DNA of 64,000 bases from Verrucomicrobiia bacterium (GTDB lineage: Bacteria; Verrucomicrobiota; Verrucomicrobiia; Limisphaerales; CAIMTB01), in assembly GCA_019634625.1 (NCBI GenBank), contig JAHCBA010000001.1, positions 186,001-250,000 of the forward strand, read 5' to 3'. A program made the position numbers and the translations under genes. Of this stretch, positions 7,959 through 25,431 are shown piece by piece. A model generated the notes under the pieces. That model did not search any database and was not told where the DNA came from. It saw only the letters and a list, made by a program, of their open reading frames with translations. Every line of letters starts with the position of its first letter. Within the stretch, counting starts at the first letter, position 1.

Positions 7959-7963
7959 ACCGG

Positions 7964-8120: not shown

Positions 8121-8157
8121 CGGCGCCTGAACGCCCCCATTCCCCATTCCCTACTCC

Positions 8158-8880
8158 CTACTCACCTTCCCCGTCCCTCCCCTCCGCCCACGCCTCCAAC
8201 TCAGGCCCGATGAGCGATGCCCACAGGGCATAGCCCGCATCGTTGACGTGCAAATCGTCGTCCAGAAATAACTCCCCGCGCGGCCGTCCCTCGTCGTCCA
8301 GCATCGGCGTGAACACATCGACGTACCCGAGGTGAGGCCGCTCCGCGCAATCCTCCCGGATCCGCTCGTTCAACACCCGTTGCGCCTCCAGCCACCGGAT
8401 CCGGCTCGGACTCGGCTTCACCGCGACAAAACGGATCGCCGTTCCCGGCATCGCCGCCTCGACCCGTTCCACGAACTGCCGCCAGCCCTCAAACACCGCG
8501 TCCACCGTCTTCCCCGCCGCCAGATCGTTGTCCCCCTCATACACGAAAATCAGCGCCGGCCGGTATCGCGTCACCACCCGGTCGAAGAAATGCAGCACAT
8601 CGCTCATCTGCGATCCCCCAAACCCGCGGTTGATTACCGGAAACCCCGGAAACGCCGTCTCCAGACCCCGCCACATCCGGAACGACGACGATCCCACAAA
8701 CAGCACCGGCCGCTCCGGCGGTGCCTCCCGAAGGTCTCTCGCCTCGAACGCGCGGATGTCTCCCTCGAACCGGTTCGTCCCCTGAGCACCCGCGCTTCCC
8801 CCAGCCAACGCCATCCCCACCGCCACGAACCCCACTGCCACCACCCTTCGAGCGAACAAAAACGGTATCGTCGGCCTCAT
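8158..8880 (-). CDS. secreted SGNH/GDSL-type hydrolase
   Basis: The 240-residue protein has a signal peptide (residues 1-32, ending around GSAGAQG). Family blocks are visible: block I VGSSSF at 62-67 with the nucleophile serine, a glycine block NRGFGGS at 84-90, block III EGDND at 115-119, and the C-terminal Asp-x-x-His region DDDLHVND at about 213-220. The family is esterases, lipases and acetyl-xylan or carbohydrate deacetylases acting outside the cytoplasm; the substrate cannot be told from sequence. It is divergent from the ACT-domain gene and one of three SGNH genes within 4.5 kb. Confidence 0.85.
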   Translation of the reverse strand: MRPTIPFLFARRVVAVGFVAVGMALAGGSAGAQGTNRFEGDIRAFEARDLREAPPERPVLFVGSSSFRMWRGLETAFPGFPVINRGFGGSQMSDVLHFFDRVVTRYRPALIFVYEGDNDLAAGKTVDAVFEGWRQFVERVEAAMPGTAIRFVAVKPSPSRIRWLEAQRVLNERIREDCAERPHLGYVDVFTPMLDDEGRPRGELFLDDDLHVNDAGYALWASLIGPELEAWAEGRDGEGE

Positions 8881-9004
8881 GCGGTCCGCACCCTATCGCC
8901 CCTCCCTCCCCCTGCCAATCGCCGCATCCCCGCCGCATCCCCGGTCGGCCCACCCTCCCCTCTTTTTCCGCGCCATTCTCCGCCCGCCACGTTACCAAAT
9001 CCCC

Positions 9005-9529
9005 ATGCGCGTCGCCCTCGTCCTCACCATCATCGGCCGCGACCGGCCCGGACTGGTGGAATCCCTCGCCTCCATGGTCACCCGGCACGACGGCAATTGG
9101 CTCGAATCCCGCATGAACCGGCTCGGCGGCGAGTTCGCCGGACTCCTCCGCTGCGACCTGCCCCCCGACCGCGAGGACGCCTTCCGCCAGGCCCTCGCCC
9201 AACTCGACGCCCTCACCGCCGTCGTCCGCCGCGACCAACCGGCCCCCGCCCCAACCGCCCCCCTCGCCACCCTCGACCTCGTGGGACACGACCGCCCCGG
9301 CATTGTGCGTCAACTGGCCGCCATCCTCGCCGCACAGGGCGTCAACGTCGAGGAACTCGCCACCGAATGCGTCTCCGCTCCCATGTCCGGCGAACCCCTC
9401 TTCAAGGCCCGCGCCCGCCTCGCACTCCCGCCCGGCCTCAACCTCGCCTCGCTCCGCACCGATCTCGAACGGGTCGCCGCCGATCTCCTCGTGGAAATCG
9501 CCATCAGCCCCGTTACCCCTCCCGCTTGA
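9005..9529 (+). CDS. tandem ACT-domain protein (GcvR-like)
   Basis: The protein has 174 residues with the start at ATG 9005 (MRVALVLTIIGRDRPGLVESL). An upstream in-frame ATG at 8879 would add a Pro-rich leader that is probably not translated. Two ACT domains are visible: residues 1-75 with GRDRPGLV, and 85-170 with GHDRPGIVRQLAAILAAQGVNVEEL. This pattern matches the glycine cleavage repressor GcvR and related amino-acid-sensing regulators. No glycine cleavage gene is in the window, so the regulated pathway is unknown. Confidence 0.85.
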   Translation: MRVALVLTIIGRDRPGLVESLASMVTRHDGNWLESRMNRLGGEFAGLLRCDLPPDREDAFRQALAQLDALTAVVRRDQPAPAPTAPLATLDLVGHDRPGIVRQLAAILAAQGVNVEELATECVSAPMSGEPLFKARARLALPPGLNLASLRTDLERVAADLLVEIAISPVTPPA

Positions 9530-9581
9530 ACACACCCCCATCGCCCGCTTCCCCACTCCGACTCCCCCGCGTCCGACAGTC

Positions 9582-11868: not shown

Positions 11869-12564
11869 ATGCGTCGATTCGTTGTGGGAACGCGCCGATG
11901 GTGGACCCTCCTTCTTGCCCTGGGCTGGACCATGGGCTGCACCGTGCCTCCCAAGGCACCGCTGCCCGCCACCCACTTCACCGGGCTCACTCGCGTGGCC
12001 TGTGTCGGGGACAGCATCACCGCCGGCTCCGGCCTGGCCAACCCCGGGGAATCCGCCTATCCCGCCGTTCTTGCCGACCTCCTCGGTCCCACCTACCGCG
12101 TCCGGAACTTCGGCGTCAGCGGCGCCACTCTCCTCCGTGACGGCGACCTGTCCTACACCGGCACCGCCACGTTCCAGGAAGCCCTCGACTTCCGCCCGCA
12201 TGTCGTCGTCATCGCCCTCGGAACCAACGACTCCAAGCCTCAGAACTGGCTCCATGCCGACAGCTTCGAACGCGATCTCTACCGTCTGGTGCGCGCTTTC
12301 CAGTCCCTCCCCTCCCGCCCCGTGGTGTACCTGGCCACCCCGCCGCCCGTCTTCCGCGACCGCTGGGGTATCACCGCAGCGACCGTCCGCGACCGGATCG
12401 TCCCCACCCTCCGCCGCATCGCCGCCCGCGAAGGATGGTCGGTCATCGATTGGCACCTCCTCCTGAACGACGACCCCGCTGTCTTCCCCGACGGCATTCA
12501 TCCCGATGCCCTCGGGGCCGCCCGGATGGCCGGCCATGTCGAAACCGTCTTCCGCGGTCGCTGA
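11869..12564 (+). CDS. lipoprotein SGNH/GDSL hydrolase
   Basis: The 231-residue protein has a lipoprotein signal peptide; the lipobox LGWTMGC puts the lipidated Cys at 24. SGNH blocks: GDSITAGSG at 47-55 (nucleophile Ser49), SGATLL around 85, GTNDS at about 117, and DGIHPDALG near residue 207, giving the Asp-His pair. The arrangement is typical of GDSL esterases and thioesterase-I/lysophospholipase-like or sialate-esterase-like enzymes on the cell surface. It is the last native gene before the tRNA-Thr island. Confidence 0.88.
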   Translation: MRRFVVGTRRWWTLLLALGWTMGCTVPPKAPLPATHFTGLTRVACVGDSITAGSGLANPGESAYPAVLADLLGPTYRVRNFGVSGATLLRDGDLSYTGTATFQEALDFRPHVVVIALGTNDSKPQNWLHADSFERDLYRLVRAFQSLPSRPVVYLATPPPVFRDRWGITAATVRDRIVPTLRRIAAREGWSVIDWHLLLNDDPAVFPDGIHPDALGAARMAGHVETVFRGR

Positions 12565-12929
12565 ACCCCCGCCCTTCGCGGGCCCAGGCGGCGCTGTGGC
12601 GCCCGGTCTGACCGAGAACGAGACGTTTTGCCCCTGGAGCGGAGCACGATGTCGGCAGGCCACCGTCGCTGGCCGCTGCACTGGACCGCTACGCTGGACC
12701 GCTGCGCTGGGAAACGAGGCGCGAAACGAGAGCACCCCTGACCAGCCCTCTCGATGCCCCGCGCCGGTCCCGGGGTGGACCTGGGCGACGACCTGGGAAA
12801 TGGGGCCGCGACCTGAACACGCGGCTGGGCCATTCTATCGGGCCACTCCCGACCACTTTCCTTCGCCCGACGCAAGGGGCCCGCCAAAAGTGGCCCAAAA
12901 GTGGTCCAGCAGACTTTTCGGGAAGCCCT
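12565..12929. other. intergenic stretch bearing the relic end of an older related island
   Basis: No convincing gene is present. The last 49 bp (12881-12929) align without gaps to 25281-25329, the inner end of the neighbouring island, at about 30 of 49 positions. Both hold a pair of GTGG-type 12-bp repeats ahead of the att core. A short local repeat (CTGGACCGCT) lies near 12683-12705. The stretch therefore looks like the remnant of an earlier element integrated at the same tRNA. Confidence 0.5.
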
Positions 12930-13009
12930 TGAATCTTCGTAAGTCCTTGGTGCCGTTGGAGCCAGTTGTCGGATTTGAACCGACGCCCGTCCGATTACAA
13001 ATCGGGTGC
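12930..13009. repeat. attL: 80-bp direct repeat with 3' part of tRNA-Thr
   Basis: Positions 12957-13009 duplicate the 3' 53 bases of the tRNA-Thr gene (reverse orientation, including the CCA end), and 12930-12956 duplicate its downstream flank. The only difference from attR is C at 12986 against A at 25386. Identity ends at 13009, where the tRNA would continue into its anticodon-side 5' half, so this copy is not a functional tRNA. Confidence 0.92.
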
Positions 13010-13094
13010 AAGGCGTTTTTCCACGTCGTCCCATGTCGTGTGAAATCGCACAAATCCCTTGCAAAACAGGGGTTCAAGCGCGACAACACGCGAC

Positions 13095-14414
13095 ATGACG
13101 CAACCGCAACGGACGCCAAAAGTGGCTAAGCAAGTGGCTAAGCAAAACGAAGGCGGCAAGGTTTCGACTGGAATCCGGCGCTTCGAGTCCAAGGTCTTCA
13201 AGCCGGCGTGGACGAAGGGCGGCAGACGCTTCGAGCTTGAGCATTACGCCATCCGTCTCCGACACGACGGGAAGCGCGCCACGGTCAACCTGCAAACCGC
13301 CGACGCCCGGGAGGCGGCACGTCGGGCGGCGCGGTTCGCCACCATCTTGGCGGCAAGCGGATGGGAAGCGGCGCACGCCGACCTTTCACCCGAACAAGCC
13401 CGCGTCGTGGCGAAGCGCGACACGCCAACCGTCGGAGACTTGATTCGCGAAGCCGACCGCGTTGCCGTCCATGTCAAGGCGCCAACCCTTCGAGGTTACG
13501 GGAACTGCCTTCGACAACTGGCTACCCTCGTCGCCGGCATCGAGGGCGATGCCAGTCGGTTCAACTACCGCACCGGGGGAACCGAACGGTGGCGCGAGAC
13601 GGTTGACGCCATCCGCATCGGCACCCTGACGCCTCGCGCCGTCGAGGGCGCCACGGCCGCCTACGTGAAGTCTCGCGGGACGACGGACTCGGCGAAGCGG
13701 ACGATGGCGGCCGTTCTTCGCGGTGCCCGGGCGTTCTGGAGCCGACGCCTTCGCCGGTTGCTGCCCTTCGAGAACCTGCCCGACCCGTTCGAGGGCGTCG
13801 TTATCGAGTCGCCGCGCCCTCCCAGGTACGTCTCGACGGTGAACGCAACCGCCCTCGTCGAGGCGGCACGTTCCGAACTTCGCGACGGTGGCGACCCCGA
13901 GGCGTGGAAGGCGTTGCTCCTGGAGTTGGGCGCCGGGTTGCGGCGCGGAGAGGTTGACCAGTTGCTCTGGGCGAACGTGGACGCATCGCGCCGGGCAATC
14001 CGCGTCATCGCCGGCAAGTCGTGGGAGAGCGTCGCCGAGGTTCCCCTGGCGGACGGCATCGCATCGGAATTGGAACGGCTTCGCCCCGACGCGAAGGGGC
14101 TTTACGTGCTGGAGGGCGGACCAAGGCCCGGCCCGGACGAGAAGCGACGCCGCTACGGTGCACACCGAACATGGCGACGGCTGACCGATTGGCTTCGCCG
14201 CAACGGGGTCAACAGCCGAACGCCAAACCATTCGATGCGAAAGGAGTGCGGCGCGATCATCAACGCCACGGCCGGGCTTCACGCCGCATCGCGGTTCTTG
14301 CGCCACGCCGACGTTGCCGTGACCGCCAGCCATTACAGCGACGCCCGCAACCGCGTCGTGGTGCCGTTGTTCGACGACTCGACGCCCGGGAAGACTGGCG
14401 GGAACGCGTCTTGA
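13095..14414 (+). CDS. tyrosine recombinase (island integrase)
   Basis: The protein has 439 residues from ATG 13095; an in-frame ATG at 13059 is less likely. Catalytic residues are visible: Arg in GAGLRRGE (283/284), H379-x2-R382 in HSMRKECG, H404 in FLRHADVAV, and the nucleophile Y414 in SHYSD. A basic N-terminal arm-binding region (about 1-60) and a core-binding SAM-like region (about 110-215) precede the catalytic domain. The gene sits immediately inside attL, as is usual for tRNA-targeting elements. Two 12-bp arm-type repeats overlap its first codons, so integrase binding may repress its own expression. Confidence 0.95.
   Translation: MTQPQRTPKVAKQVAKQNEGGKVSTGIRRFESKVFKPAWTKGGRRFELEHYAIRLRHDGKRATVNLQTADAREAARRAARFATILAASGWEAAHADLSPEQARVVAKRDTPTVGDLIREADRVAVHVKAPTLRGYGNCLRQLATLVAGIEGDASRFNYRTGGTERWRETVDAIRIGTLTPRAVEGATAAYVKSRGTTDSAKRTMAAVLRGARAFWSRRLRRLLPFENLPDPFEGVVIESPRPPRYVSTVNATALVEAARSELRDGGDPEAWKALLLELGAGLRRGEVDQLLWANVDASRRAIRVIAGKSWESVAEVPLADGIASELERLRPDAKGLYVLEGGPRPGPDEKRRRYGAHRTWRRLTDWLRRNGVNSRTPNHSMRKECGAIINATAGLHAASRFLRHADVAVTASHYSDARNRVVVPLFDDSTPGKTGGNAS
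13122..13145. repeat. tandem 12-bp repeats near attL (candidate integrase arm sites)
   Basis: Two adjacent copies of GTGGCTAAGCAA occur at 13122-13133 and 13134-13145. The same unit with the same 12-bp spacing occurs next to attR at 25290-25312, with a further inverted copy at 25237-25246. Placement at both island ends fits integrase arm-type binding sites. Confidence 0.6.
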
Positions 14415-14751
14415 CCCTGATCCCGGCGCCTCGCCCGTGGTGGCGTCGTGGTCATGGCCAGTTGCAAGCCCGCAAAAGACACGCCCCACCCGCTTCCAAG
14501 ATGCTACGTCCGGCACGCTGAGCCTTCCCGAACACTGTCCGGGAGGCAGTCTTCCGCACTCGGGTTCCGTGCTCGCCGGGCGAGTCGAAGCCACGAAAGA
14601 GCATGAATTGACGCCGGTTTTCCCAAAATTCCGGTAAGTGTGCATCGCGTGCACCGCATTGATTCCCTTTCCGCCTCGGAATCAACACGTTAACAGGGGT
14701 ACAAAGTCAGGTTGCCTAGACGACGCGCTACAGTGGTAGTCTCGGCGGTGC
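14415..14751. other. 337-bp non-coding gap between integrase and Xis genes
   Basis: No gene is seen. The right half is A/T-richer than its surroundings (around 14600-14700) and probably holds the promoter for the rightward replication genes. A clear -35/-10 pair with standard spacing could not be fixed; TTGCCT at 14712 and TACAGT at 14729 are too close together. Confidence 0.4.
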
Positions 14752-14955
14752 ATGAATGAATCTGACATTCCTACGCCAATCGAGACACTTCGCCGGTACA
14801 CACTCGAAAAGATCGCGGAGCTTGCCTCTTGCTCCGTCGAGACCGTCCGTCGTCGCGTCCGTCGGGGGCAGCTTCCAGCGGTCAGGCACGGTAAGGGTTG
14901 GACTGTCGGCCACGCCGACGCGGTGAAGTTTCTGACGACCGGAGGTTCCCGATGA
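14752..14955 (+). CDS. excisionase-like HTH DNA-binding protein
   Basis: The 67-residue protein is dominated by one MerR/Xis-type helix-turn-helix: YTLEKIAELASCSVETVRRRVRRGQLPAVRHGKGWTVGHADAVKFL. The wing residues and the closing aspartate-containing helix match the excisionase / HTH_17 family. In tRNA-integrated elements such proteins direct excision or switch on the replication genes. It heads a rightward operon; its stop overlaps the start of the next ORF (ATGA). Confidence 0.8.
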   Translation: MNESDIPTPIETLRRYTLEKIAELASCSVETVRRRVRRGQLPAVRHGKGWTVGHADAVKFLTTGGSR

Positions 14956-15083
14956 GGCCCAGCCTTCGATGGTCGAGGGCCAGCGGGTCAACCAAGGCGA
15001 AGGTCGCCAGCCTGATCCGGCGCGGTTGGTTCCCGGGGTGCAGGATTTGCGACCTTGGCAGGCGGAAGCGAGGCGGTCGGTGA
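14952..15083 (+). CDS. small basic protein (43 aa)
   Basis: This is a short ORF from ATG 14952 to TGA 15083, linked by four-base overlaps to both neighbours (ATGA with the Xis gene, GTGA with the primase gene). The product is basic, with CRICDLGRRKRGGR at the C-terminus; two cysteines three residues apart could bind metal. The double overlap argues that it is translated. No family is recognised; it may serve mainly to couple translation. Confidence 0.5.
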   Translation: MRPSLRWSRASGSTKAKVASLIRRGWFPGCRICDLGRRKRGGR

Positions 15084-16003
15084 GAACCGCCGAGTTCCTG
15101 GACCGCTTGGGGGGCGTCCGGAAGTCCGGGCCGTCGAGCTGGATGGCGCGTTGCCCGAGTCACAAGGACCGGAATCCGTCACTCGCCATCACGGAGACAG
15201 CGGACGGCAAAACGCTCCTACGATGCCACGCGGGCTGCACCGCCGAGGCCGTCGCGGGCGCCGTCGGGCTTCGCATGAGTGACTTGATGGGCCCGAGTGA
15301 GTCGCGCAACGGCGGCCACCAACCCAAGGCGCCGCGCCGCATCGTCGCGACCTATCCCTACCACGACGAGACCGGCGCACTTCTCTTCGAGGTCGTCCGG
15401 TTCGACCCGAAAGACTTCCGGCAACGGCGTCCCGACCCCTCGGCGACGGACGGTTGGGCGTGGTCGCTGAGTGGCGTCCGTCGCGTTCTCTTCCGGCTTC
15501 CCGAGATCCGAAGGGCAATCGAGTCCGGGACTCCGGTTGTGGTCTGCGAGGGCGAGAAAGACGCCTTGCGCCTCGTTGAAATGGGCTTTCAGGCGACCAC
15601 GGCACCGGCCGGCGCTGGCAAGTGGACGGATGCCTACTCGGACTCACTTGCTGGCGCGGATGTCTATGTCGTTCCGGACCGCGACGAGCCGGGTCGAAAG
15701 CACGCGGAGCAAGTCGCCAAGTCACTCGATGGCAAGGCCAATTCCGTTCGCGTCGTCGAGCTTCCGGCTGAGTGGAGCGGCGGGCCAGTCAAAGACGTTT
15801 CCGACCTGTTTGACGGCGGGGCAACGGCTGGTGATTTCTTGGCTTTGTGTGAGTCGGCGAGTGAGTGGGCGAAGCTGCGTGAGGGAAGGAAGAAAAGTCA
15901 TGGCGGCAACAGGCGGAGTGAGGATGCCAGTTCAAAGGGCAATAGTTGCCCCATGGTAACTATTCAGGTCGGTGGTGCGCAGGGGAGGACTTTGCCGGGG
16001 TGA
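15080..16003 (+). CDS. CHC2/TOPRIM primase, C-terminus cut by IS66 insertion
   Basis: Starts at GTG 15080 (GTGA overlap), giving 307 residues. Zinc-finger-like motif: C25PSH28 with C49/H50/C53. TOPRIM domain: E158 in VVVCEGEKDA and D200/D202 in VVPDRDEPG. The last native codon before the IS is at 15953-15955; the final 16 residues are encoded by the IS left end. Removing the IS and one target duplication joins this frame directly to the AAA+ ATPase frame at 18618. The two were therefore probably one fused primase-ATPase of about 848 residues that replicates the island. Confidence 0.85.
   Translation: MRTAEFLDRLGGVRKSGPSSWMARCPSHKDRNPSLAITETADGKTLLRCHAGCTAEAVAGAVGLRMSDLMGPSESRNGGHQPKAPRRIVATYPYHDETGALLFEVVRFDPKDFRQRRPDPSATDGWAWSLSGVRRVLFRLPEIRRAIESGTPVVVCEGEKDALRLVEMGFQATTAPAGAGKWTDAYSDSLAGADVYVVPDRDEPGRKHAEQVAKSLDGKANSVRVVELPAEWSGGPVKDVSDLFDGGATAGDFLALCESASEWAKLREGRKKSHGGNRRSEDASSKGNSCPMVTIQVGGAQGRTLPG
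15948..15955. repeat. 8-bp target site duplication, left copy
   Basis: GCCCCATG precedes the IS left inverted repeat; the identical 8 bp follows the right inverted repeat at 18613-18620. Eight-base duplications are the rule for IS66-family elements. Confidence 0.95.
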
Positions 16004-16134
16004 AGGGCTTCGGCGGACCGCGATGAGGGGAGCGATCGGCGAGGGTGGTGCGAGGGAGGGGAAGGAAAGTTGCGATCCAGACTGGACTCTTGCTTCAGCC
16101 TCGGGCAGGGTCACTACCCGTGGAGCACGAGACC

Positions 16135-16998
16135 ATGGTGATGCAGGGCAGGGAACTGGGAGCGGCCGAGCTGACGCAGATCCGCTCACTCATCGCAACC
16201 CGGCCGGATTGGAGTCGCTACCGGTTGTCGCGGGAGTTGTGCCTCCTTTGGAACTGGCGGACCGCCACCGGCCAGATGAAGGACATGGCGGCGCGTACGC
16301 TGCTCTTGAAACTGGAGGAGCGGGGCCTGGTGCAACTGCCCCCACGTCGATGGGCCTCGCCCAATCGGATGCGGCGCAAGCGGCTAGTGCCCTCGGCTCA
16401 CGCCCGGGAACCGGTGGTCGGCGCGCTCGCCGAGTTGCAGCCGCTGGAAGTGGTGGAACTGAGTCGGGCCCCCGCCGAACTGGCGCTCTTCGAGACCTTG
16501 CTCCACACGCATCACTACCTGAGTTACACCAGTCCGGTGGGGATGAACCTGAAGTATCTGGTGCGCGATCGCCATGGACGACCGGTGGCCTGCTCCCTGT
16601 TCGGGTCCGCAGCGTGGCGCTGTGCCGCCCGGGACGGGTTCATCGGCTGGTCGGAGGCGACGCGCGCGCGCCACTTGCAGCGGATCACCAACAACACGCG
16701 CTTCCTGGTCATGCCCTGGGTTGAGGTCCGCCATCTGGCCGGCCATGTCCTGGGCCGGATCGAGCGGCGGCTGCGCGCCGACTGGAGGCGCAAGTATGCC
16801 GAACCGTTGAGTCTGGTGGAGACCTTCGTCGATACGAGTCGCTTTGCCGGGGTCTGTTACCGGGCGGCCAACTGGATTGCGGTGGGTGAGACCACCGGAC
16901 GGACCCGTCAGGACCGCTTCAGCCGCATCGAGGTTCCCCGCAAGACGGTGCTGGTGCGTCCGTTGGTGGCGAACTTCCGGGAGGAACTGGCGGCATGA
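16135..16998 (+). CDS. DUF4338 (DruA-like) protein carried by the IS66 element
   Basis: About 287 residues from ATG 16135; ATG 16141 is also possible. The domain pattern HHYLSYTSPVGMNLKYLVRDRHGRPVACSLFGSAAW, then NNTRFLVMPWVEVRHLAGHVLG, and the C-terminal DTSRFAGVCYRAANW, identifies DUF4338. This family is also the DruA component of Druantia defence systems, but many members sit beside transposases, as here. It overlaps the transposase start by four bases (ATGA). A role in transposition or target choice is likely but unproven. Confidence 0.85.
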   Translation: MVMQGRELGAAELTQIRSLIATRPDWSRYRLSRELCLLWNWRTATGQMKDMAARTLLLKLEERGLVQLPPRRWASPNRMRRKRLVPSAHAREPVVGALAELQPLEVVELSRAPAELALFETLLHTHHYLSYTSPVGMNLKYLVRDRHGRPVACSLFGSAAWRCAARDGFIGWSEATRARHLQRITNNTRFLVMPWVEVRHLAGHVLGRIERRLRADWRRKYAEPLSLVETFVDTSRFAGVCYRAANWIAVGETTGRTRQDRFSRIEVPRKTVLVRPLVANFREELAA

Positions 16999-18425
16999 GC
17001 CGGCGCGACGAACTGCTGGCATTGGCGCGGGCGAACCCCGAGGGCATCGTCGATTACGTGCTCACGCTGGAAGAGCGGATCCGCCAACTGGAAGCGCGCG
17101 TCGTCGAGTTGGAAGCGCGTCTGGCTCAGAACAGCGGCAACAGCGGCCGGCCACCCTCCAGCGACGGCCTCGCCAAGCCGCCTCCACGCAGCTTGCGTGG
17201 CAAATCGGCGCGCAAACCCGGTGGCCAACCCGGTCACCCCGGTCGCACCCTTCAGGCGGTCGCCAAGCCCGACCGGGTCCAGGTTCACCCGCTCACCCAG
17301 TGTCATTGTGGCCAATGCGGCGGCGTATCTCTGCTCGGCCAGCCGGTGCTGGATCACGAGCGCCGCCAGGTGTTCGATCTTCCGGTGCTCCAACTCTCGG
17401 TGACCGAGCACCAGGTCGAGATCAAGTGCTGTCCGGTCTCGGGCCGGAAAGTCAGCGCTGCCTTTCCGGCGGGAGTCCTGGCCCCGGTGCAGTACGGCCC
17501 CAACTTCCGTGGGCTGGCGCTCTATCTGTTCAACCAACAACTCCTTCCCTACGACCGGTTGCGGCAAACCTGTCTCGATCTCTTTGGACAGCCCTTGAGC
17601 CTGGGCACCCTCGGTTCGATCAACGAAAGCGCCTACGATGTCCTTGCCCCGGTGGAGAGCGCCATCATCCGTGGCCTCATCCGGGCTGAGGTGGTGCATG
17701 TGGACGAAAGCGGGTTGCGCGTTGCCGGAAGCCTCCACTGGCTGCATGTCGCCTGCACACCCGAACTGACTCACTACGGCGTTCATGCCAATCGCGGGAC
17801 CGAAGCGATGGATGCGCTGGGGGTGCTGCCCCTCTGCCGACTATGGCTGGTGCACGACCACTGGAAGCCCTATTTCAAGTACGACGCCCTGCACGCGCTC
17901 TGCAACCAGCACCTCCTGCGGGAACTCAAGTTTGTGGCCGAGCAGATGAATGAAGCCTGGGCCTCGGAACTGAGCGCGTTCCTGATCGGTTGGAAGAACG
18001 ACCCGCTCACTGCCCTGGGACTCGATGAGGACCAGTTCAACCGGGCCCATGCCCACTACCGCGCAATCCTCCGTCGGGGTCGGCGCCTTCATCCCCGCCG
18101 CCGGTCCGGGCAGGGTCGGACCAAGCAGGACAAGGCGACCAATCTGCTTGACCGCCTGGAGGACTACGATCTGTCGGTGCTGGCCTACCTGATCGATCCC
18201 AAGGTCCCCTTCACCAACAACCAGGGCGAGCAGGACATTCGCATGATCAAGGTGAAGCAGAAAATCAGCGGCTGCTTCCGGACCTTGCGCGGGGCGAACC
18301 TCTTCGCGCGCATTCGCAGCTACCTCTCCACCTGCCGCAAGCAGGGACACAATCTCTGGGACGCCTGCCGGCGCCTGGCGCTCGGACAACCCTTCATGCC
18401 CGAGGTTCCGGCCGCCGGCCCCTGA
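16995..18425 (+). CDS. IS66-type transposase
   Basis: 476 residues. N-terminal coiled coil (about 18-45, LEERIRQLEARVVELEARL), then the linker QNSGNSGRPPSSDG typical of IS66 TnpC, a zinc-binding segment around CHCGQCGG, and a DDE core. The core shows HVDESGLRV (first Asp), WLVHDHWKPYF (second Asp) and FTNNQGEQDIRMIKVKQKISG (Glu region). Length and motifs suggest an intact enzyme. It overlaps the DUF4338 gene and is read in the same direction. Confidence 0.95.
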   Translation: MSRRDELLALARANPEGIVDYVLTLEERIRQLEARVVELEARLAQNSGNSGRPPSSDGLAKPPPRSLRGKSARKPGGQPGHPGRTLQAVAKPDRVQVHPLTQCHCGQCGGVSLLGQPVLDHERRQVFDLPVLQLSVTEHQVEIKCCPVSGRKVSAAFPAGVLAPVQYGPNFRGLALYLFNQQLLPYDRLRQTCLDLFGQPLSLGTLGSINESAYDVLAPVESAIIRGLIRAEVVHVDESGLRVAGSLHWLHVACTPELTHYGVHANRGTEAMDALGVLPLCRLWLVHDHWKPYFKYDALHALCNQHLLRELKFVAEQMNEAWASELSAFLIGWKNDPLTALGLDEDQFNRAHAHYRAILRRGRRLHPRRRSGQGRTKQDKATNLLDRLEDYDLSVLAYLIDPKVPFTNNQGEQDIRMIKVKQKISGCFRTLRGANLFARIRSYLSTCRKQGHNLWDACRRLALGQPFMPEVPAAGP

Positions 18426-18617
18426 CCGGGCAACCTCGTAGCGGCGCGGACGAGCCCGCGACCGAAGCCCTCCTGCTCCGATTTCCCGACTTGCCGGGAC
18501 CCTCTACCGCGGAAAGCCGCAACAGTAGCGATCCTCCCCGCTCATCCGTCCTGGCCAGTGCCGTCACTTGCACCGCTCCCGGGCCCCCCCATTTGGGGAC
18601 CTGAACAGTTACGCCCC

Positions 18618-20291
18618 ATGAACTCTGCCGCCGACAAGAAGACTGCCGCTGAGGTTGAAACCGAGTCACCCCGCGCCGAAATCATCGGCATCTTGTCCGA
18701 AAAGGGACTCAATGGAACTGAGCGTGGAACACTGATTGCCAACGCGGTCGTTGAGTCACTTTCGAGGCGCGGCAGGTTCTACTATCACGCCGACCGCAGA
18801 GACTTTGATTCCGCAATGTTCTTCGACGCCGATAGGAAGCGCCTGGAACGGGTTCGGTCTGACGCGTTCCGAGGGTGGATTTCCGAATGGACCGCACTGA
18901 ACCGGGCGGCCACCCACTCGAAGTTTATCGAGTCCGGAATAGAGACCGCCGCGCTTGCCGGGCCACTCACAACCGGCATCGTTCCCGAAGCCTACTTCTG
19001 TTCCCGGGGCGGTGCCGTCTATCTTTCCAACGGCGACGGCTCGATTGTCCGCGTTCGCGCCGAAGGAATTGACATGGTGGACAACGGGACCGACGGAGTT
19101 CTTTTCGCGGCCGGGCGCACACTGGCGCCGTGGGCACTCACTGGCCCTCGCGACCCGTTCGAGACGTGCAGCCTGTTCAGCAACGTGAATTGCGGGGCCA
19201 CGCACGGAAGAGACCTTCTGAAGCTATGGGTTCTCTCGCTTCCGACTTCGCCGAGATCGAAGCCGCCGCTGTGTCTCGCGGGCGACGTCGGCAGCGGGAA
19301 GACACGGGCAGCGAAGGGCATCGCGGAACTGTACGGAATGCCATTCGTGGCCTCGGCGGTCGAAGAGTCACGCGAAGACGATTTCTGGCCCGGCATCGAC
19401 GCGGGCGGGCTGTTCACGCTGGACAACGCCGACTCCCGCGTTCGGTGGCTCGCCGATGCGCTGGCGTCTGCCGCTACGGACGGTTGCTCCCAGAGGCGCA
19501 AGCTCTACACAAACTCGGAGACCGTGAACCTTCGTGCCCGCGCTTGGGTGGCCGTGACGACCGCCAACCCGACCTTTGCCAGCGACCCGGGACTCGCCGA
19601 CCGCCTGCTCGTGGTGCGACTACTCCGACGGGAGGGCGAGACCGCCGACACCGCGCTTTCTGACGAAATTACCGCGAACCGCAACGCCGGACTATCCTTC
19701 GTCGCACGCACGCTTCAACGGGCCCTGGCTGATTCCTCGCCGGTCCCCTCCGGACTGAACGCACGCCACCCGGATTTCGCATCGTTCGCGGTTCGGATCG
19801 GGAGGGCAATCGGGCGGGAGGTGGAGGCCGTCGCGGCTCTGTCGAGCGCGGAAGCGGACAAGGGCCGGTTTTGCGTCGAGAACGATCCGATTGGCGCCGC
19901 CCTACTTTCGCTCGTCGAGGCTTCCGGGTTCATTTCCGGGACTGCCGCCGAGATCGGCCCGCGCCTTATCGAAGTGGACTCGGAGCTTGAGAACCGGGCG
20001 ACGCCGAAGCGTCTCGGCAAGAAGTTGTCGGCACTATGGCCGCACCTGGAGCGCGTCATGGGTGCGCGAAAAGAGGCCAACCGCATCGGGGTCACGACCT
20101 TTCGATTCACCCGACAAGGAGGCTTGGTGCAGGGTTTGCAGGGTTTCGACCCCCATGGTTTTGAAAAGTCCCCTCGTGAAGAGAATTCTGGGGACTTTTG
20201 GAAACCATGCTCTTCAAACCCTGCAAACCCTGCAACCGAGTCCGATTTCCGTCTCGGCGACTCACAACCCGAAATGGTTTGGCCGGACTAA
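18618..20291 (+). CDS. AAA+ ATPase/helicase half of a split primase-helicase
   Basis: 557 residues from ATG 18618, which lies inside the right target duplication. Walker A GDVGSGKT at 222-229, Walker B LFTLDN at 265-270, sensor-1 Asn in TTANPTF (about 317), and an arginine-finger candidate in DPGLADRLL (329). The N-terminal 200 residues are a helical adaptor. The arrangement suits a replicative helicase partner of the TOPRIM primase. The frame is open leftward across the duplication and, without the IS, continues from the primase. The C-terminal 60 residues are a polar tail rich in Asn, Pro and Ser. Confidence 0.85.
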   Translation: MNSAADKKTAAEVETESPRAEIIGILSEKGLNGTERGTLIANAVVESLSRRGRFYYHADRRDFDSAMFFDADRKRLERVRSDAFRGWISEWTALNRAATHSKFIESGIETAALAGPLTTGIVPEAYFCSRGGAVYLSNGDGSIVRVRAEGIDMVDNGTDGVLFAAGRTLAPWALTGPRDPFETCSLFSNVNCGATHGRDLLKLWVLSLPTSPRSKPPLCLAGDVGSGKTRAAKGIAELYGMPFVASAVEESREDDFWPGIDAGGLFTLDNADSRVRWLADALASAATDGCSQRRKLYTNSETVNLRARAWVAVTTANPTFASDPGLADRLLVVRLLRREGETADTALSDEITANRNAGLSFVARTLQRALADSSPVPSGLNARHPDFASFAVRIGRAIGREVEAVAALSSAEADKGRFCVENDPIGAALLSLVEASGFISGTAAEIGPRLIEVDSELENRATPKRLGKKLSALWPHLERVMGARKEANRIGVTTFRFTRQGGLVQGLQGFDPHGFEKSPREENSGDFWKPCSSNPANPATESDFRLGDSQPEMVWPD

Positions 20292-20528
20292 ATGCGACTT
20301 CGAGTTACTATGAACGACAGAGACCTTGAAACCCTTGCGGGCCGGGTGGAGCGATGCGGGACGCTGACCCGCGCCATCCGGGCTCTTCGCTGGTGCCGGG
20401 AGTGGCCTGCTGGTCACGCCGACCGGCCGGCCCAACCCGGATTCGTCCGCGACTTCGAGAAGGCCCACGGTCCCTTGCCGGCGAGCGCGGAACGGATCAT
20501 GGCTGAGTTTCAGCCGGAGGACGCATGA
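20292..20528 (+). CDS. small hypothetical protein (78 aa)
   Basis: Starts directly after the stop of the ATPase gene (ATG 20292; ATG 20310 is an alternative giving 72 residues) and overlaps the nuclease gene by four bases. The product is helical, with LAGRVERCGTLTRAIRALRWCREWPAG, followed by DFEKAHGPLPASAERIMAEF. No known domain is recognised. Tight packing within the replication operon suggests a function linked to the ATPase or the nuclease. Confidence 0.65.
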   Translation: MRLRVTMNDRDLETLAGRVERCGTLTRAIRALRWCREWPAGHADRPAQPGFVRDFEKAHGPLPASAERIMAEFQPEDA

Positions 20529-21034
20529 ACGACGACATCGACCTTCCAAGCGACGGCTCGTGCCGGCCGTGCATCGTGGTCGATTCGAGGGAGCAAACGC
20601 CTCTGGCCTTCCGGCGCCTGGCGTCGGTCGTTGGGACGCTTGGAACTGGCGACTACTCGGCGCGGGGCTTGGAACATCACCTCGTGGTCGAGCGGAAGTC
20701 CGTCGCGGATTTGATCGGGTCGCTTGGTCCGGAACGCGAGCGGTTCGAGAGGGAATTGCATCGGCTTCGCGGGTTCGTCTTCCCCCGCCTGCTGATCGTC
20801 GGGACCGAGGCCGAGGTGATTGCTGGGCGCTATCGGTCGAACATGAAGCCGCGTTCTGTCATGGCTTCGTTGCATGCCTTCGAGGCGCGTTACGGCGTGC
20901 CGATTGTTTGGGTGGCCGATCCGGAATCGGCGGCGCGACTGGTCGAACGGTGGGCGGCGTGGTGCGCGTACGACGTGACCCGGTCCGCGAGGCTGTTGGC
21001 GAAGGGCATGCCGGAAGCCGTGGAGGCGCGTTGA
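20525..21034 (+). CDS. ERCC4/XPF-type nuclease
   Basis: 169 residues. Nuclease landmarks: VVDSREQTPL at 18-27, GDYS at 42-45 and VVERKSVADLIGSL at 54-67, the V-E-R-K-x3-D active-site motif. The C-terminal half is short and has no HhH tandem or helicase. Stand-alone ERCC4 nucleases of this size occur in phages and satellites, where they cut branched or flap DNA during replication or host takeover. It follows the 78-residue ORF with an ATGA overlap. Confidence 0.88.
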   Translation: MNDDIDLPSDGSCRPCIVVDSREQTPLAFRRLASVVGTLGTGDYSARGLEHHLVVERKSVADLIGSLGPERERFERELHRLRGFVFPRLLIVGTEAEVIAGRYRSNMKPRSVMASLHAFEARYGVPIVWVADPESAARLVERWAAWCAYDVTRSARLLAKGMPEAVEAR

Positions 21035-21138
21035 GGAGAGGCCCGCTGTGGTTACCCTCGGACGAAATCAAAACCGCGTGGCGGTGCCCGTGCGGGGCGG
21101 GAAAGGGCATCCCAGAGAAAAAGGGGGGAAAAAGGTAA
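21031..21138 (+). CDS. possible mini-protein (35 aa)
   Basis: A TTG at 21031 overlaps the nuclease stop (TTGA) and opens 35 codons, LRRGPLWLPSDEIKTAWRCP, then CGAGKGIPEKKGGKR. It contains a CPC-G motif and a lysine-rich end encoded by an A5-G6-A5 run (about 21118-21133). The unusual start and short length make this weak; the overlap is the only argument for it. Confidence 0.25.
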   Translation: MRRGPLWLPSDEIKTAWRCPCGAGKGIPEKKGGKR

Positions 21139-21242
21139 GTATTTTCTTTAAACCCGCTCACACGGCAGGGTTGGCAGGACGGCGAACTTTATGCATAAAG
21201 CCCTCGAAAATCGAACTGTCACCCCCTCCATCTGAATCACCT

Positions 21243-22112
21243 ATGAACTCACAACCGAAATCCAACGCTCAACTGGCAAAAAAGTACGGCGCGACGACCC
21301 GAACCGTTCAACGCTGGCGTGCCGAAGGCGCACCCCTCCATGACCACGCTCAAATGCTCTCATGGCTGGCTGGCCGGCGCGTTTGTCCGGAACCGCCGGT
21401 TGAATCACCCATGACATCGGCGGCGAAAGTGATGTCACCCCCGACGCCGCCTGTGGAACCGCCGGCAGGGGCGGCTTGTGCCGATGCCGGGGACGGGGAC
21501 GAGGGTGCGGCGCAAGCATTGCGAAGGCTGGAGGCAGGCGAGCGGCAGGCACACAACGCCTTCCTGCGAGCCGTTGAGTCTGGCGACCCCAGGGCAATCG
21601 CGTCGTCGCGGCGTGGATGGTTGGCGGTGTGCGAGGCGCTGAGGAAAGCGGACCTGGCGGTGAGTGAGGTGAGGCGAGGCGACACGGTTTCCAGCGTTGC
21701 CGCCGTCGGGGCGTTCATAGCCGCGTTGGCACCACTCCGACAGCATGCCGCGGCCCTGCTATCAAGGATAGGTCCGGGGTGTTGCTCCCAGGCGCGGGAT
21801 GCGAGCGCATCCGCAGAGATCGAGGCTGTCATTCAGGGTGAATGCGACGCGCTGGAAGTATCCATCGAACACGCCATCGAGCTGTTTTCCGGCAACCTTG
21901 GCCAGCAGGCCGGGGAGGTTGGGAAGCGGGTCTTGGATCAATCGCTGACGGCGGGACGGACCCTCCAATCGCTACTCGGACGGATGTTCGGGGAGCTGGA
22001 TGAGACCGCGTCCCGTCGCCCGATCGCGAGGCATGAACTCAAAAGCGCGAGGGAACGGTTGTTTCTGGAGTTCTCGAAGAGACTCGGCGGGCTTGGGGAG
22101 GGTAAGCCATGA
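21243..22112 (+). CDS. HTH protein resembling a terminase small subunit
   Basis: 289 residues from ATG 21243; in-frame sequence back to 21048 lacks coding character. The N-terminal helix-turn-helix (SNAQLAKKYGATTRTVQRW, about 6-24, then RAEGAPL) matches Nu1-type terminase small subunits and phage/plasmid HTH proteins. A Pro-rich linker (about 55-85) leads to a long helical region (95-280). No large terminase subunit is present. In phage satellites a lone TerS redirects helper packaging; that role here is inference. A site-specific DNA-binding regulator is the main alternative. Confidence 0.65.
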   Translation: MNSQPKSNAQLAKKYGATTRTVQRWRAEGAPLHDHAQMLSWLAGRRVCPEPPVESPMTSAAKVMSPPTPPVEPPAGAACADAGDGDEGAAQALRRLEAGERQAHNAFLRAVESGDPRAIASSRRGWLAVCEALRKADLAVSEVRRGDTVSSVAAVGAFIAALAPLRQHAAALLSRIGPGCCSQARDASASAEIEAVIQGECDALEVSIEHAIELFSGNLGQQAGEVGKRVLDQSLTAGRTLQSLLGRMFGELDETASRRPIARHELKSARERLFLEFSKRLGGLGEGKP

Positions 22113-22279
22113 GCAGGAAACTGACCGAGTCGGAGCGACTGGTCTTAGACTCCGTGACCGCACCGCCCGATGAGAGCGTTGAGGACTTTTTGGCCAGCGT
22201 AGCGTTCGGGGTGCCCAAGACACCGAAGGCGACGGTCCTGAAACCGAAGGCAAAAAGGAAACGGAATGAGTTACCATGA
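22109..22279 (+). CDS. small hypothetical protein (56 aa)
   Basis: ATG 22109 overlaps the upstream TGA by four bases. The product begins MSRKLTESERLVLDSVTAPP and ends with a lysine-rich tail (KAKRKRNELP). It is acidic then strongly basic, with no recognised domain. The overlap chain with both neighbours supports translation. Confidence 0.55.
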   Translation: MSRKLTESERLVLDSVTAPPDESVEDFLASVAFGVPKTPKATVLKPKAKRKRNELP

Positions 22280-22502
22280 CCCAGCGCGGCTGTTCGAGGG
22301 GCGGAAGAAGGAGGTGACGAATCCTCAAGGCGTGAATCAGCACGGGGAGGCTGACCCTCAAAATGAGGTTCAACCAACAACCGCCGCTCAAATCGCCGCC
22401 GAGACGGGCGTCAGCCGCGCCACCGTCGAACGCGACGTAGCCTTCGCCAAAGCCGCCGACAAACTCTGCGTGGCGGATGACATAACAAAGGCTCGCCAAT
22501 GA
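22266..22502 (+). CDS. small HTH protein (78 aa)
   Basis: Starts at ATG 22266, overlapping the previous ORF by 14 bases. The C-terminal half is a helix-turn-helix, TTAAQIAAETGVSRATVERD followed by VAFAKAAD, as in ParB-like and replication-control proteins whose HTH is followed by a short helix. The N-terminus is polar. It overlaps the next gene by four bases (ATGA). Likely a DNA-binding regulator; the partner sites are unknown. Confidence 0.65.
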   Translation: MSYHDPARLFEGRKKEVTNPQGVNQHGEADPQNEVQPTTAAQIAAETGVSRATVERDVAFAKAADKLCVADDITKARQ

Positions 22503-22798
22503 ATGGCTTCGATGATGACAGCAGCGTGGTCCCGGCCGTGGACTTCCCTTACGACGACATAGACGCCCCCGTGGACTCACCTCGCGATGACAACACCCTC
22601 ATGCACGTCCTGTCGATCATCTGCGATGGGCGCGACGCGGAGCAGATAGGCAAGCGTGCTCTGGTCGTTCAGCAACTCCTGAATCCGCTCCCAGGCACAC
22701 AACGGGACTTGGCTAAGACTCTCGGAGTGTCTGAGGGTCGAGTAAGCCAGCTACTTAAGGCGCTGCGGGCCGCATTGCTGTCATCCACAACGACTTAG
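22499..22798 (+). CDS. small acidic HTH protein, sigma-region-4-like
   Basis: 99 residues. The first 33 are very acidic (DDDSSVVPAVDFPYDDIDAP). The C-terminal part, LPGTQRDLAKTLGVSEGRVSQLLKALRAAL, is a clear helix-turn-helix similar to sigma region 4 or HTH_XRE types. It is the last gene of a run of overlapping short ORFs. A transcription regulator of the island is the simplest reading. Confidence 0.65.
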   Translation: MNGFDDDSSVVPAVDFPYDDIDAPVDSPRDDNTLMHVLSIICDGRDAEQIGKRALVVQQLLNPLPGTQRDLAKTLGVSEGRVSQLLKALRAALLSSTTT

Positions 22799-22838
22799 GT
22801 TGGCTAAGTCACTCTGCCGCTAAAGTCCGGACACATTC

Positions 22839-23408
22839 TTGATGGCATCAAAAACTTTGAGAACGTCACGGGAGCTTGTCGTGGAGGCCCTGGACCGGTT
22901 GTGCGACTTGTCACTGACCCAAGACGACCCCAACGCTCCACACTTCGGCGGGCCCAGGCTTCCCGAGACCTTCCGTGAAAAGCGCCAACGCATGGAGGCC
23001 GAGGCGGCGGCGGCGCGGGCGGAGCATGAGGCGGAGCAACGGCGGTTGGCCAGTCTGTTTGTGAGTGTGCGCGACGGACAGGCCCATGCCCGTCGTTCAC
23101 GCCAGAAACTCGAATCCATCGAGGCCAGCCTGAAGGATTCAGATGGTGACATCGCGGCACAGTGTCAATGGCTGGTGGACACCTACGGTCATGCTGGCGA
23201 CGGCATGAATCCGATGGGATTGCAGCAACTTGCGGTCCTGCATGCGCTCAAGGCCAGTCGGGAGCAACTGATTGGCGCGGCGCGGCGTGAGTTTGAAAGC
23301 GCATCGGCGGCGCTGAGTAGGTTGGTGTCTGAGAACTCGAAGGACTTGGAGGCGATGGGACTTTTCAAAGCTGAGTCGCCAGAAGACACTGGCGCGAGCC
23401 CTTCCTGA
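22839..23408 (+). CDS. coiled-coil hypothetical protein (189 aa)
   Basis: Starts at ATG 22839 or 22842. Long charged helices dominate: REKRQRMEAEAAAARAEHEA at about 46-66 and a second run over 85-105. The C-terminal third (ALKASREQLIGAARREFESA, then SAALSRLVSE) is also helical. No enzymatic motif is seen. Such proteins in islands and phages are often scaffolding-like or of unknown use; nothing here decides it. Confidence 0.65.
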   Translation: MMASKTLRTSRELVVEALDRLCDLSLTQDDPNAPHFGGPRLPETFREKRQRMEAEAAAARAEHEAEQRRLASLFVSVRDGQAHARRSRQKLESIEASLKDSDGDIAAQCQWLVDTYGHAGDGMNPMGLQQLAVLHALKASREQLIGAARREFESASAALSRLVSENSKDLEAMGLFKAESPEDTGASPS

Positions 23409-23460
23409 TATCGACAATTCGCAGAGACAGGCGCACACTCTCACCGAAGGAGACACTGAC

Positions 23461-23784
23461 ATGAACGACAACAAACTTAGCGGGCTGGCCCGAGTCACCG
23501 CAGCATTCGCGGCGGAGCATCAATCGAAGAAGGAGCGAGTCCTGGCCGCACACGCCGTCGCGGATTCCCTCCGCCCGAAGAGCAACATGGTTGGGTTGCA
23601 CGGGCTGGAGAAGGTCACCGAGGCTTTCGCGGGGGCCCAGGCGCGGCGCATCGTCGAGGCCTTGGCCAGAAAGACCGGCATTCCGCTGCCGGGGGCGCCG
23701 AAACCGGCCGCGCAACTGCTGGGAACCAGTCCGGCGCCGGCCCGTCGTCTCTGCGGTGTGATGCCGTTGGGATTCGCGGATTGA
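23461..23784 (+). CDS. hypothetical protein (107 aa)
   Basis: A good ribosome-binding site (AAGGAG, about 10 bases ahead) precedes ATG 23461. The sequence contains an internal repeat: LSGLARVTAAFAAEHQSKKERVLAA and LHGLEKVTEAFAGAQARRIVEAL share the pattern L-x-G-L-x-x-V-T-x-A-F-A. The C-terminus is Pro/Ala-rich. No family is recognised. The duplicated helix suggests a small dimeric or adaptor fold. Confidence 0.6.
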   Translation: MNDNKLSGLARVTAAFAAEHQSKKERVLAAHAVADSLRPKSNMVGLHGLEKVTEAFAGAQARRIVEALARKTGIPLPGAPKPAAQLLGTSPAPARRLCGVMPLGFAD

Positions 23785-23897
23785 ACCATCCTCGCGGCGG
23801 GCGCCATCCATGCGCCTTTTCGCGGCGAACCCCGGCGCCGGCCGCACCAACCGGGGGCTGGCAGGACCACCCACCTGCCGGCATTTGAGGAACCGAC

Positions 23898-24182
23898 ATG
23901 CCAACATTGAGCGGAACGATTCGGTCCATCGGCGGCAACCCGGTTCGGACCGTCGTCAAGGCGACGAGGACGAGCAAGCCGGGCCCTGTCGGCGACGGGA
24001 AGTTTTGCCTCGGCGGTTCAGTGTCCTTCGAGACCGATGCCGACGGGAACTTCTCCGTGACGCTGGTGCATGGCGAGTTTCGACTGGACTGGAGCGTGGG
24101 CGGGCTTCCCTCGCGGCTGAACATCGTCATTCCCGAGGGCGCCGAGACCGTCTCGCTGGTTGACGTGATGGCCCCGACCTGA
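23898..24182 (+). CDS. small beta-rich hypothetical protein (94 aa)
   Basis: MPTLSGTIRSIGGNPVRTVV leads into alternating hydrophobic strands (GGSVSFETDADGNFSVTLVH, then LPSRLNIVIPEGAETVSLVD). The pattern resembles carboxypeptidase-regulatory-like or transthyretin-type beta sandwiches, without a signal peptide. It is the last rightward gene of the island, ending 38 bp before a terminator hairpin. Function unknown; a structural role is possible. Confidence 0.6.
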   Translation: MPTLSGTIRSIGGNPVRTVVKATRTSKPGPVGDGKFCLGGSVSFETDADGNFSVTLVHGEFRLDWSVGGLPSRLNIVIPEGAETVSLVDVMAPT

Positions 24183-24220
24183 CCAACGGATTCACGGTCA
24201 CGCCCCCGAGAACGGCGCAC

Positions 24221-24254
24221 GCCCGGTCTTCCGCGTAGGGGAGGCCGGGCTTTT
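24221..24254 (+). terminator. rho-independent terminator ending the rightward island operon
   Basis: GCCCGGTCTTCC and GGGAGGCCGGGC form a 12-bp stem with three G-T wobbles around loop GCGTAG (24221-24250), followed by TTTT. It lies between the last rightward gene and the convergent PIN toxin gene. Confidence 0.8.
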
Positions 24255-24350
24255 CGTCTGCTATGGCCACCTTCCCCCGGTTGTTCCGATGCGTCTCCGT
24301 GGCACCTGGAGCGTCGATTCCGGCATCGAGGCGCGCTGAATTGCCCCGCG

Positions 24351-24848
24351 TCAGGCTGCCCGAAGTAATGCCTTTGGATGGGCGACGTTAACGGGCGGCA
24401 AATCGAAATTGGCGAGGCACAAGGAAATCGCGTCACTGTCCGCGTCGAGGAGGTGCCGGTCGGACGTCACCAAAACGGGAAGATCGCAGAGGCTCGCCTC
24501 AGCGAGAATCAACGCATCATGGAGTTCATCGGAGGGGAGCTTGCATCGCCAAATCGCTTCTCTCGCGACCTTCTCCGCGATGCCATGCTCCACCGGCGAG
24601 AGCGGCAGTGGCGTTGCCCCCCAGCCCCGCAGGTCCCGGAGTGCTACCCCCGCAAGCGCCTGTTCCTCACCCTCCTTCTCCGTCGCCGCGTGAGCCAGTT
24701 CCTCAATGACGGTCGGTGTGGCGAACAGCGCAAATCCCCGCTCTTGGAACTTCTCACGAAAGGCGTGCGCCCAATTCTCGCCCCCCGCCAAGGCGTACAA
24801 GACGTTAGTGTCGAGCGCGAACCGCTTGCTTCGCCGGGGCTGCCCCAT
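24351..24848 (-). CDS. PIN-domain RNase, toxin of a toxin-antitoxin pair
   Basis: 165 residues. PIN acidic residues are in place: D13 in ALDTNVLY, E49/E50 in PTVIEELAH, D111 in ELHDALILAEA, and D130 in VTSDRHLLD. VapC-type PIN toxins cleave tRNA or rRNA. The gene overlaps the upstream small antitoxin-like ORF by 44 bases. Its place against the right att site is typical for island-stabilising systems. The C-terminal tail (about 145-165) is outside the core domain. Confidence 0.85.
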   Translation of the reverse strand: MGQPRRSKRFALDTNVLYALAGGENWAHAFREKFQERGFALFATPTVIEELAHAATEKEGEEQALAGVALRDLRGWGATPLPLSPVEHGIAEKVAREAIWRCKLPSDELHDALILAEASLCDLPVLVTSDRHLLDADSDAISLCLANFDLPPVNVAHPKALLRAA

Positions 24849-24999
24849 AGATTATCTGCATTCCCCGCTCGAAAAGCCGCGCCCGATCCGAGTCCGACAG
24901 GCGGTTTGCCGTCTCTCGCGTTTGGCGGGCGAGCTTCGTGCTTGCCGGCTCTTCGCCCTCCCTCTCGCCCTGCTTGGTGATAGGCTTGTCGGTTGCCAT
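24805..24999 (-). CDS. antitoxin-like small protein
   Basis: 64 residues from ATG 24999 (MATDKPITKQGEREGEEPAS). An in-frame ATG at 25077 exists, but its extra sequence lies in tandem repeats and is probably non-coding. Polar and charged, with a central helix ARQTRETANRLSDSDRARLF. Size, order (antitoxin before toxin) and the 44-base overlap fit the partner of the PIN toxin. The DNA-binding fold is not recognisable, so the antitoxin call rests on context. Confidence 0.6.
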   Translation of the reverse strand: MATDKPITKQGEREGEEPASTKLARQTRETANRLSDSDRARLFERGMQIIYGAAPAKQAVRARH

Positions 25000-25032
25000 C
25001 GAGGCTCCTCGCGAATTGTGTGTTGCGCCAGT

Positions 25033-25072
25033 TGACGCCAAATGCCAGCAACTGACGCCAAATGCCAGCAAC
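25033..25072. repeat. two tandem 20-bp repeats upstream of the toxin-antitoxin genes
   Basis: TGACGCCAAATGCCAGCAAC occurs twice without spacer (25033-25052, 25053-25072), with a further CTG fragment after. They lie 34 bp upstream of the antitoxin start on the promoter side, as expected for operator sites of an autoregulated toxin-antitoxin operon. Confidence 0.6.
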
Positions 25073-25289
25073 TGCATGGACCGTTACCCGTAGGGAGGAG
25101 CCTGTCAACGTCCCAGTCGAGGCCATGGTGGACCCGATGGAGCCGCACCGATCCCGAACCCGTGCCGTCCGTCATGGAGAACGTCCCCGCCGTCGAGGCG
25201 ACCCCGTCCTGGACGACGTGGCGGCACCCGGAACGAGCTTAGCCACTCGCCGCCTTGCCCGCACCCCCGCCGCAATCCTGCCGCCAGAA

Positions 25290-25312
25290 GTGGCTAAGTT
25301 TTGGCTAAGCAA
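25290..25312. repeat. tandem 12-bp repeats near attR (candidate integrase arm sites)
   Basis: GTGGCTAAGTTT (25290-25301) and TGGCTAAGCAA (25302-25312) repeat the unit found at 13122-13145. Another copy in inverse orientation, GCTTAGCCAC, lies at 25237-25246. Confidence 0.6.
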
Positions 25313-25329
25313 GGTTTCTCGGAGGCTCC

Positions 25330-25409
25330 TGAATCTTCGTAAGTCCTTGGTGCCGTTGGAGCCAGTTGTCGGATTTGAACCGACGACCGTCCGATTACAA
25401 ATCGGGTGC
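25330..25409. repeat. attR: 80-bp direct repeat within tRNA-Thr
   Basis: Matches attL with one mismatch. Positions 25357-25409 are the 3' 53 bases of the complete tRNA-Thr gene, so integration preserved the tRNA. Confidence 0.92.
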
Positions 25410-25431
25410 TCTACCACTGAGCTAAACTGGC
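25357..25431 (-). tRNA. tRNA-Thr(UGU), island integration site
   Basis: Read leftward: the acceptor stem GCCAGTT pairs with AACTGGC, the D arm is AGCTCAGTGGTAGAGC, the anticodon loop TTTGTAA gives anticodon UGU, the T arm contains GGTTCAAATCC, and CCA is encoded. It is intact despite the island lying on its 3' side. Confidence 0.95.

Follow-up and report, generated by a model that had tools for sequence, protein, structure and literature searches.

The window analysed here, i.e. the whole stretch of 64,000 nucleotides, contains an integrated satellite-like element at positions 12866-25409, which is about 12.5 kb long including a 2.66-kb transposon (about 10 kb once the transposon is discounted) and carries at both ends direct repeats that overlap a tRNA-Thr gene. 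The features of the element are listed below, with the E-values of family matches in parentheses:

12866-13009: attachment repeat beside the integrase, a copy of the 3' part of tRNA-Thr and adjacent sequence
13134-14414, + strand: tyrosine integrase, frame open from 13059 (PF00589, 1.6e-10; phrog_1, 6.7e-18)
14969-16003, + strand: primase part (Toprim) of a primase/ATPase gene interrupted by the transposon (phrog_6088, 2.7e-38)
15956-18612, + strand: transposon with DruA-like (DUF4338) and IS66 transposase genes (PF14236, 5e-36; PF03050, 6.5e-37)
18613-20291, + strand: ATPase part of the same replication gene, ORF listed from 18558 (AAA matches only weak)
20128-20234: iteron-like array, candidate origin (TGCAGGGTTT twice and its complement twice)
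20525-21034, + strand: ERCC4-type nuclease (PF02732, 6.1e-14; phrog_3490, 1.2e-17)
21243-22112, + strand: TerS-like protein gene (from profile comparisons, relatives and AlphaFold2)
22266-22502, + strand: small HTH protein (HTH_11, 4.6e-5)
22499-22798, + strand: small HTH protein, second gene after terS (homologue at L008 9031-9360)
22839-23408, + strand: coiled-coil-like ORF without a family match
23461-23784, + strand: ORF of 107 aa (translated ORF, family searches)
23898-24182, + strand: ORF of 94 aa (translated ORF)
24351-24848, - strand: PIN-domain protein, probable accessory gene (PF01850, 5.6e-7)
25266-25409: attachment repeat at the intact tRNA-Thr gene (tRNA-Thr itself 25357-25431, - strand)

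The two attachment repeats are 82% identical over 144 nt, with a longest identical run of 56 nt, and are nearly identical on the tRNA-Thr side; the GC content is 64% in the element and 67-68% in its flanks. Family searches across the element recognised no portal, capsid, tail or lytic genes, no cos or pac site was found for it, and the comparison of its genes with anti-phage defence models gave no match except a weak DruA hit inside the transposon.

The transposon has 15-bp terminal inverted repeats and an 8-bp target duplication (GCCCCATG), and the primase and ATPase parts share a frame after subtraction of the 2665-bp insertion, by coordinate arithmetic only. Because the primase/ATPase gene is split in this way, the window copy may be defective in its own replication, with terS intact. 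A Druantia-family domain travels with a transposase in this transposon, whose terminal repeats are clean. The array at 20128-20234 is the sole inverted repeat of at least 18 nt in the element, and comparable iteron-like arrays follow the replication gene in the related elements; it is not statistically distinctive, as counts of repeated 9-mers did not alone separate iteron arrays from GC-rich coding repeats.

Structure and TerS likeness of the 289-residue protein

The ORF at 21243-22112, originally predicted to encode an HTH protein with a long helical body resembling the small terminase subunit (TerS), specifies 289 aa from its ATG; the reading frame is open already from a GTG at 21048, but the homologues begin at the position equivalent to 21243. 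The protein is laid out as an N-terminal HTH (AKKYGATTRTVQRWRAEGAPL, residues 12-32), a Pro-rich linker and a helical body. In the AlphaFold2 model, obtained with an 11-row alignment, the HTH region (residues 8-45, pLDDT about 95) and a long helical hairpin (residues 87-147, pLDDT mostly 90-98) are predicted with confidence and the linker between them is predicted to be disordered; the rest of the chain is modelled as helices with low confidence (mean pLDDT 69, pTM 0.31). TerS, which selects the DNA that a virus packages, usually has an HTH plus a long helical hairpin, and the predicted model contains both, the HTH at the N-terminus and the hairpin in the centre. Structure prediction had been proposed as a check for a ring-forming TerS fold; Foldseek searches with the poorer and the better models (pTM 0.27-0.31) returned no match at E 0.001 or better. 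The long C-terminal third could not be aligned with canonical TerS.

Taken as a single sequence, the protein is only marginally similar to TerS: it matches phrog_57 at E 0.01, through the HTH, and its single-sequence HTH matches include transcription regulators at similar E-values. These matches would also suit a DNA-binding regulator, or an accessory factor of replication or excision, that resembles TerS in the common HTH only. A canonical TerS profile, built from 20 TerS genes chosen for a neighbouring GpA-type large terminase subunit (TerL) and run on 158 proteins, is ambiguous in the same respect: its top proteins are the TerS of element L018, gp05 of Verrucomicrobia phage P8625, the homologue in element L008 and the window protein, which ranks first among the proteins of the window (E 1.7e-3), but is aligned in the HTH only; the homologue in element L007 reaches only 0.1.

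The TerS reading is carried by relatives and profiles rather than by the single sequence. Two clear homologues emerged when 293 genomes of the same order were searched; they belong to L007 and L008, lie at equivalent positions in these elements and are 35-41% identical to the window protein. The L008 homologue matches phrog_57 at 3.4e-6, and tblastn against 50,697 phage records gave it a single match, a gene of phage P8625 (E 0.05) located immediately upstream of the GpA terminase gene (terL); a profile of the three members (window, L007 and L008) finds this gene at E 2.2e-5 with a probability of 76%. The TerS of L018 is unambiguous, with a nearly full-length TerS match (residues 4-233, 3.3e-11), and meets the window-family profile at 2.8e-6. 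The regulator reading is opposed by a profile from which the HTH was left out, i.e. one of the central region of the window, L007 and L008 proteins: when it was run on 453 proteins, 36 of them TerS, ranks one to four were all TerS, the best (E 2e-6) being the P8625 gene that adjoins terL in this cultured phage; below rank four, TerS and other proteins are intermixed.

Since the homologues occupy equivalent positions in two elements and the HTH-free profile ranks TerS first, the likeness appears to go beyond chance, and the TerS-like character that had been proposed for the HTH protein stands. The confident hairpin agrees with the helical body of the original prediction. In the related element L078 a canonical TerS occupies the same slot; this, together with the HTH-hairpin combination, also speaks against a regulator, which we consider unlikely. 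By these comparisons the window protein appears homologous to known TerS, and the gene product is very likely a divergent small terminase subunit.

The P8625 gene, gp05 (L055 2077-2856), is annotated as hypothetical; from its position directly before terL and from the profile match, it is probably the TerS of that phage. The window-type subfamily has only three known members, some of them in hosts that are fragmented MAGs. Single-sequence and profile scans of viral contigs found no relative of the window protein, a profile scan of genome contigs found only the L007 and L008 elements again, and in tblastn no phage or plasmid sequence matched it. Three further candidates of the first homologue search (L004, L005 and L006) were rejected as chance or unrelated matches once the loci were read.

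Related elements without a large terminase

Four related elements, each at a tRNA gene and flanked by repeats, are compared here with the window element: L007 (tRNA-Lys, repeats 3983-4067 and 12110-12194, 8.1 kb), L008 (tRNA-Met, repeats 3285-3322 and 12020-12057, 8.7 kb), L018, from a profile search of the phylum (tRNA-Lys, repeats 6527-6581 and 14353-14407, 7.8 kb), and L078, from a phrog_57 search (tRNA-Arg, 50-nt identical repeats, 5.75 kb). An integrase, a replication gene and TerS are present in all five elements and a recognised TerL in none; TerS lies downstream of the replication gene throughout the group, and its reading frame is open in every case. The window integrase is homologous to those of L007 and L078, and the primase part is 58% identical to the L007 primase-helicase. 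An ERCC4 gene precedes terS both in the window element and in L018 (39% identity), and the HTH protein at 22499-22798 is 37% identical (E 3.7e-13) to its L008 homologue, which directly follows terS. The helicase (73%) and the small gene ahead of terS are common to L008 and L078; the terS slot itself differs, holding a window-type gene in L008 and a canonical TerS (1.7e-13) in L078. The latter element (4090-9888, genome G071) holds only an integrase, a 210-aa gene, a helicase, a small gene and TerS, and resembles a near-minimal satellite.

The shared plan bears on the possibility that the window element is a decayed prophage, in which TerL and the virion genes have been lost and terS is a functionless leftover. 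The transposon-interrupted replication gene fits such decay, as do the retention of only a few head genes in L008 and the occurrence in the same order of truncated prophage relatives with TerS and without TerL (e.g. L057, L067 and L070). However, the TerL-less plan is repeated in at least four other elements, with an intact integrase and near-perfect attachment repeats, at four tRNA genes, and independent decay to one shared plan is unlikely; moreover, both neighbours of terS, a small gene ahead of it and an HTH gene behind it, recur between elements, and terS has stayed open in all five. We therefore regard a decayed prophage as quite unlikely.

L057, L067 and L070 were left out of the satellite count, being similar in type to the resident prophage and perhaps truncated prophages themselves. 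L057 (5172-11971, on contig C3 of the window genome) carries a second TerS followed by genes for a 144-aa, a RadC-like and a 137-aa protein, without TerL; the same trio stands ahead of terL in the resident prophage L056, from which L057 differs in its replication gene, so that L057 is either a satellite or a truncated prophage. In L074 (9985-19868, G209:C13), an integrase lies near tRNA-Arg and TerS, about 9 kb away, is the last gene before host genes; TerL is absent and an attachment repeat was looked for and not found. A near-identical TerS on G181:C38 is followed by TerL. Finally, in L076 (8892-12012) and L077 (10238-11050), both of G071, a GpA TerL gene near a contig end lies within about 1 kb of tRNA genes and host genes, and the host side has neither a portal nor a capsid gene; in L076, TerS precedes TerL. 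These are possibly elements that carry both terminase subunits.

Large terminases and candidate helpers

In phages, terS is usually located beside terL, an arrangement that is by definition absent in TerS-bearing satellites; the window terS has no adjacent terL. The claim that no large terminase accompanies the gene holds on the scale of the contig: a search for TerL families over the whole 6.74-Mb assembly gave no match on C1, the contig of the window, with GpA_ATPase matches only on C3 and Terminase_6C on C37, and TerL_ATPase had no match anywhere in the assembly.

The C3 match belongs to a prophage with a TerS-TerL pair, the TerL being of the GpA type, and by reading of its ORFs this prophage also has portal, protease and capsid genes. 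The host of L007 likewise carries a GpA TerL beside TerS (G200:C81), and in prophages of the same order a TerS gene stands before GpA TerL. The C3 prophage and G200:C81 are thus potential helpers, although the TerS of the resident prophage is not closely similar to that of the satellite. The Terminase_6C-type TerL on C37, around position 21300 (L020-L022), lies in a Mu-like prophage, which was set aside as a helper, its terminase-proximal gene having been read as a different, Mu gp27-like type.

A probable satellite that may redirect helper packaging

We find it probable that the window gene is a divergent terS carried by an integrated phage satellite, similar to the phage-inducible chromosomal islands (PICIs), that redirects the TerL of a helper. 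From the presence of a TerS-like gene in a mobile element that lacks TerL and recognisable virion genes, we infer that the element probably spreads by turning a phage packaging machine onto its own DNA, the mode of spread of PICIs in other bacteria. Homology, element boundaries and gene content are read from the DNA; induction, oligomerisation, the DNA site, TerL binding and transfer are modelled on known TerS and PICI biology, as follows: when a helper phage with a GpA-type TerL becomes active, the satellite would excise and replicate; its TerS would oligomerise, bind a packaging site on the satellite DNA through the N-terminal HTH and join the helper TerL through its C-terminal part; and the helper motor would then fill helper heads with satellite DNA. 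That the TerS-like protein instead poisons the packaging complex of the helper as an anti-phage device, without packaging the element, is very unlikely: satellites often interfere with their helpers (PMC6092414) and terS is intact in a copy that is perhaps replication-defective, but the gene matches no anti-phage defence model, and the integrase and replication genes, kept across the group, favour mobility.

The satellite reading rests on a comparison with the described TerS-bearing PICIs of the SaPI type (PMC6092414). Shared with them are an integrase at one end of the element, attachment repeats, a terS gene downstream of the replication genes, a length of about 10 kb without the transposon and the absence of virion and lysis genes; the primase/replication module, with the iteron-like array as a candidate origin behind it, is similar in layout, and the logic of an own TerS and a borrowed TerL would be the same. 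The specific attachment site with flanking repeats, a PICI trait, is represented here by tRNA-Thr and the 144-nt repeat, and by the same plan in the four relatives; the lack of structural and lytic genes holds for the window element, L008 having two head-related genes; and of the PICI trait of an own replication module, the window copy has the transposon-split primase and the array described above. The window element differs from PICIs in its phylum, its integration at a tRNA gene and the ERCC4 nuclease before terS; the likeness between the two is one of gene plan. The protein itself is comparable to the GpA/Nu1-type terminase of lambda-like phages (phrog_57 TerS, PF05876 TerL; gp05-gp06 in P8625), with which it has in common the HTH, the predicted helical hairpin and the similarity of the central region, and from which it differs in its Pro-rich linker, its longer C-terminal part and the lack of a TerL gene after its own.

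The two head-related genes of L008 (9998-11255) encode a cement/scaffold-like protein (phrog_673, 2.6e-9) and a ClpP-like head-maturation protease (phrog_2976, 4.9e-10); outside a virion, neither has an evident role. Capsid-forming PICIs and P4-like satellites alter or supply capsid parts, and L008 recalls them by the type of these two genes; unlike them, it has no recognised major capsid protein or portal. It is conceivable, and we propose it tentatively, that a satellite lineage native to Verrucomicrobiota parasitises GpA-terminase phages with an exchangeable TerS, some members such as L008 owning a head-maturation protease and a cement-like protein; if this is true, L008-like satellites would redirect both which DNA the helper packages and how its capsids are processed.

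Phage satellites are well characterised in few bacterial groups only. A 2024 review lists P4-like satellites, PICI, cfPICI, PLE, PICMI and recently proposed marine and soil satellites (PMC11389934); no phage satellite described for Verrucomicrobiota was found in the open-access literature, which is weak evidence of absence, as subscription papers lie mostly outside it. Given several related elements with TerS and without TerL, in genomes able to hold GpA-terminase prophages, terminase piracy would extend to a phylum known largely from uncultivated lineages, and the swapping of TerS in this slot, among elements that are otherwise alike, would serve as a natural experiment on helper choice by satellites.
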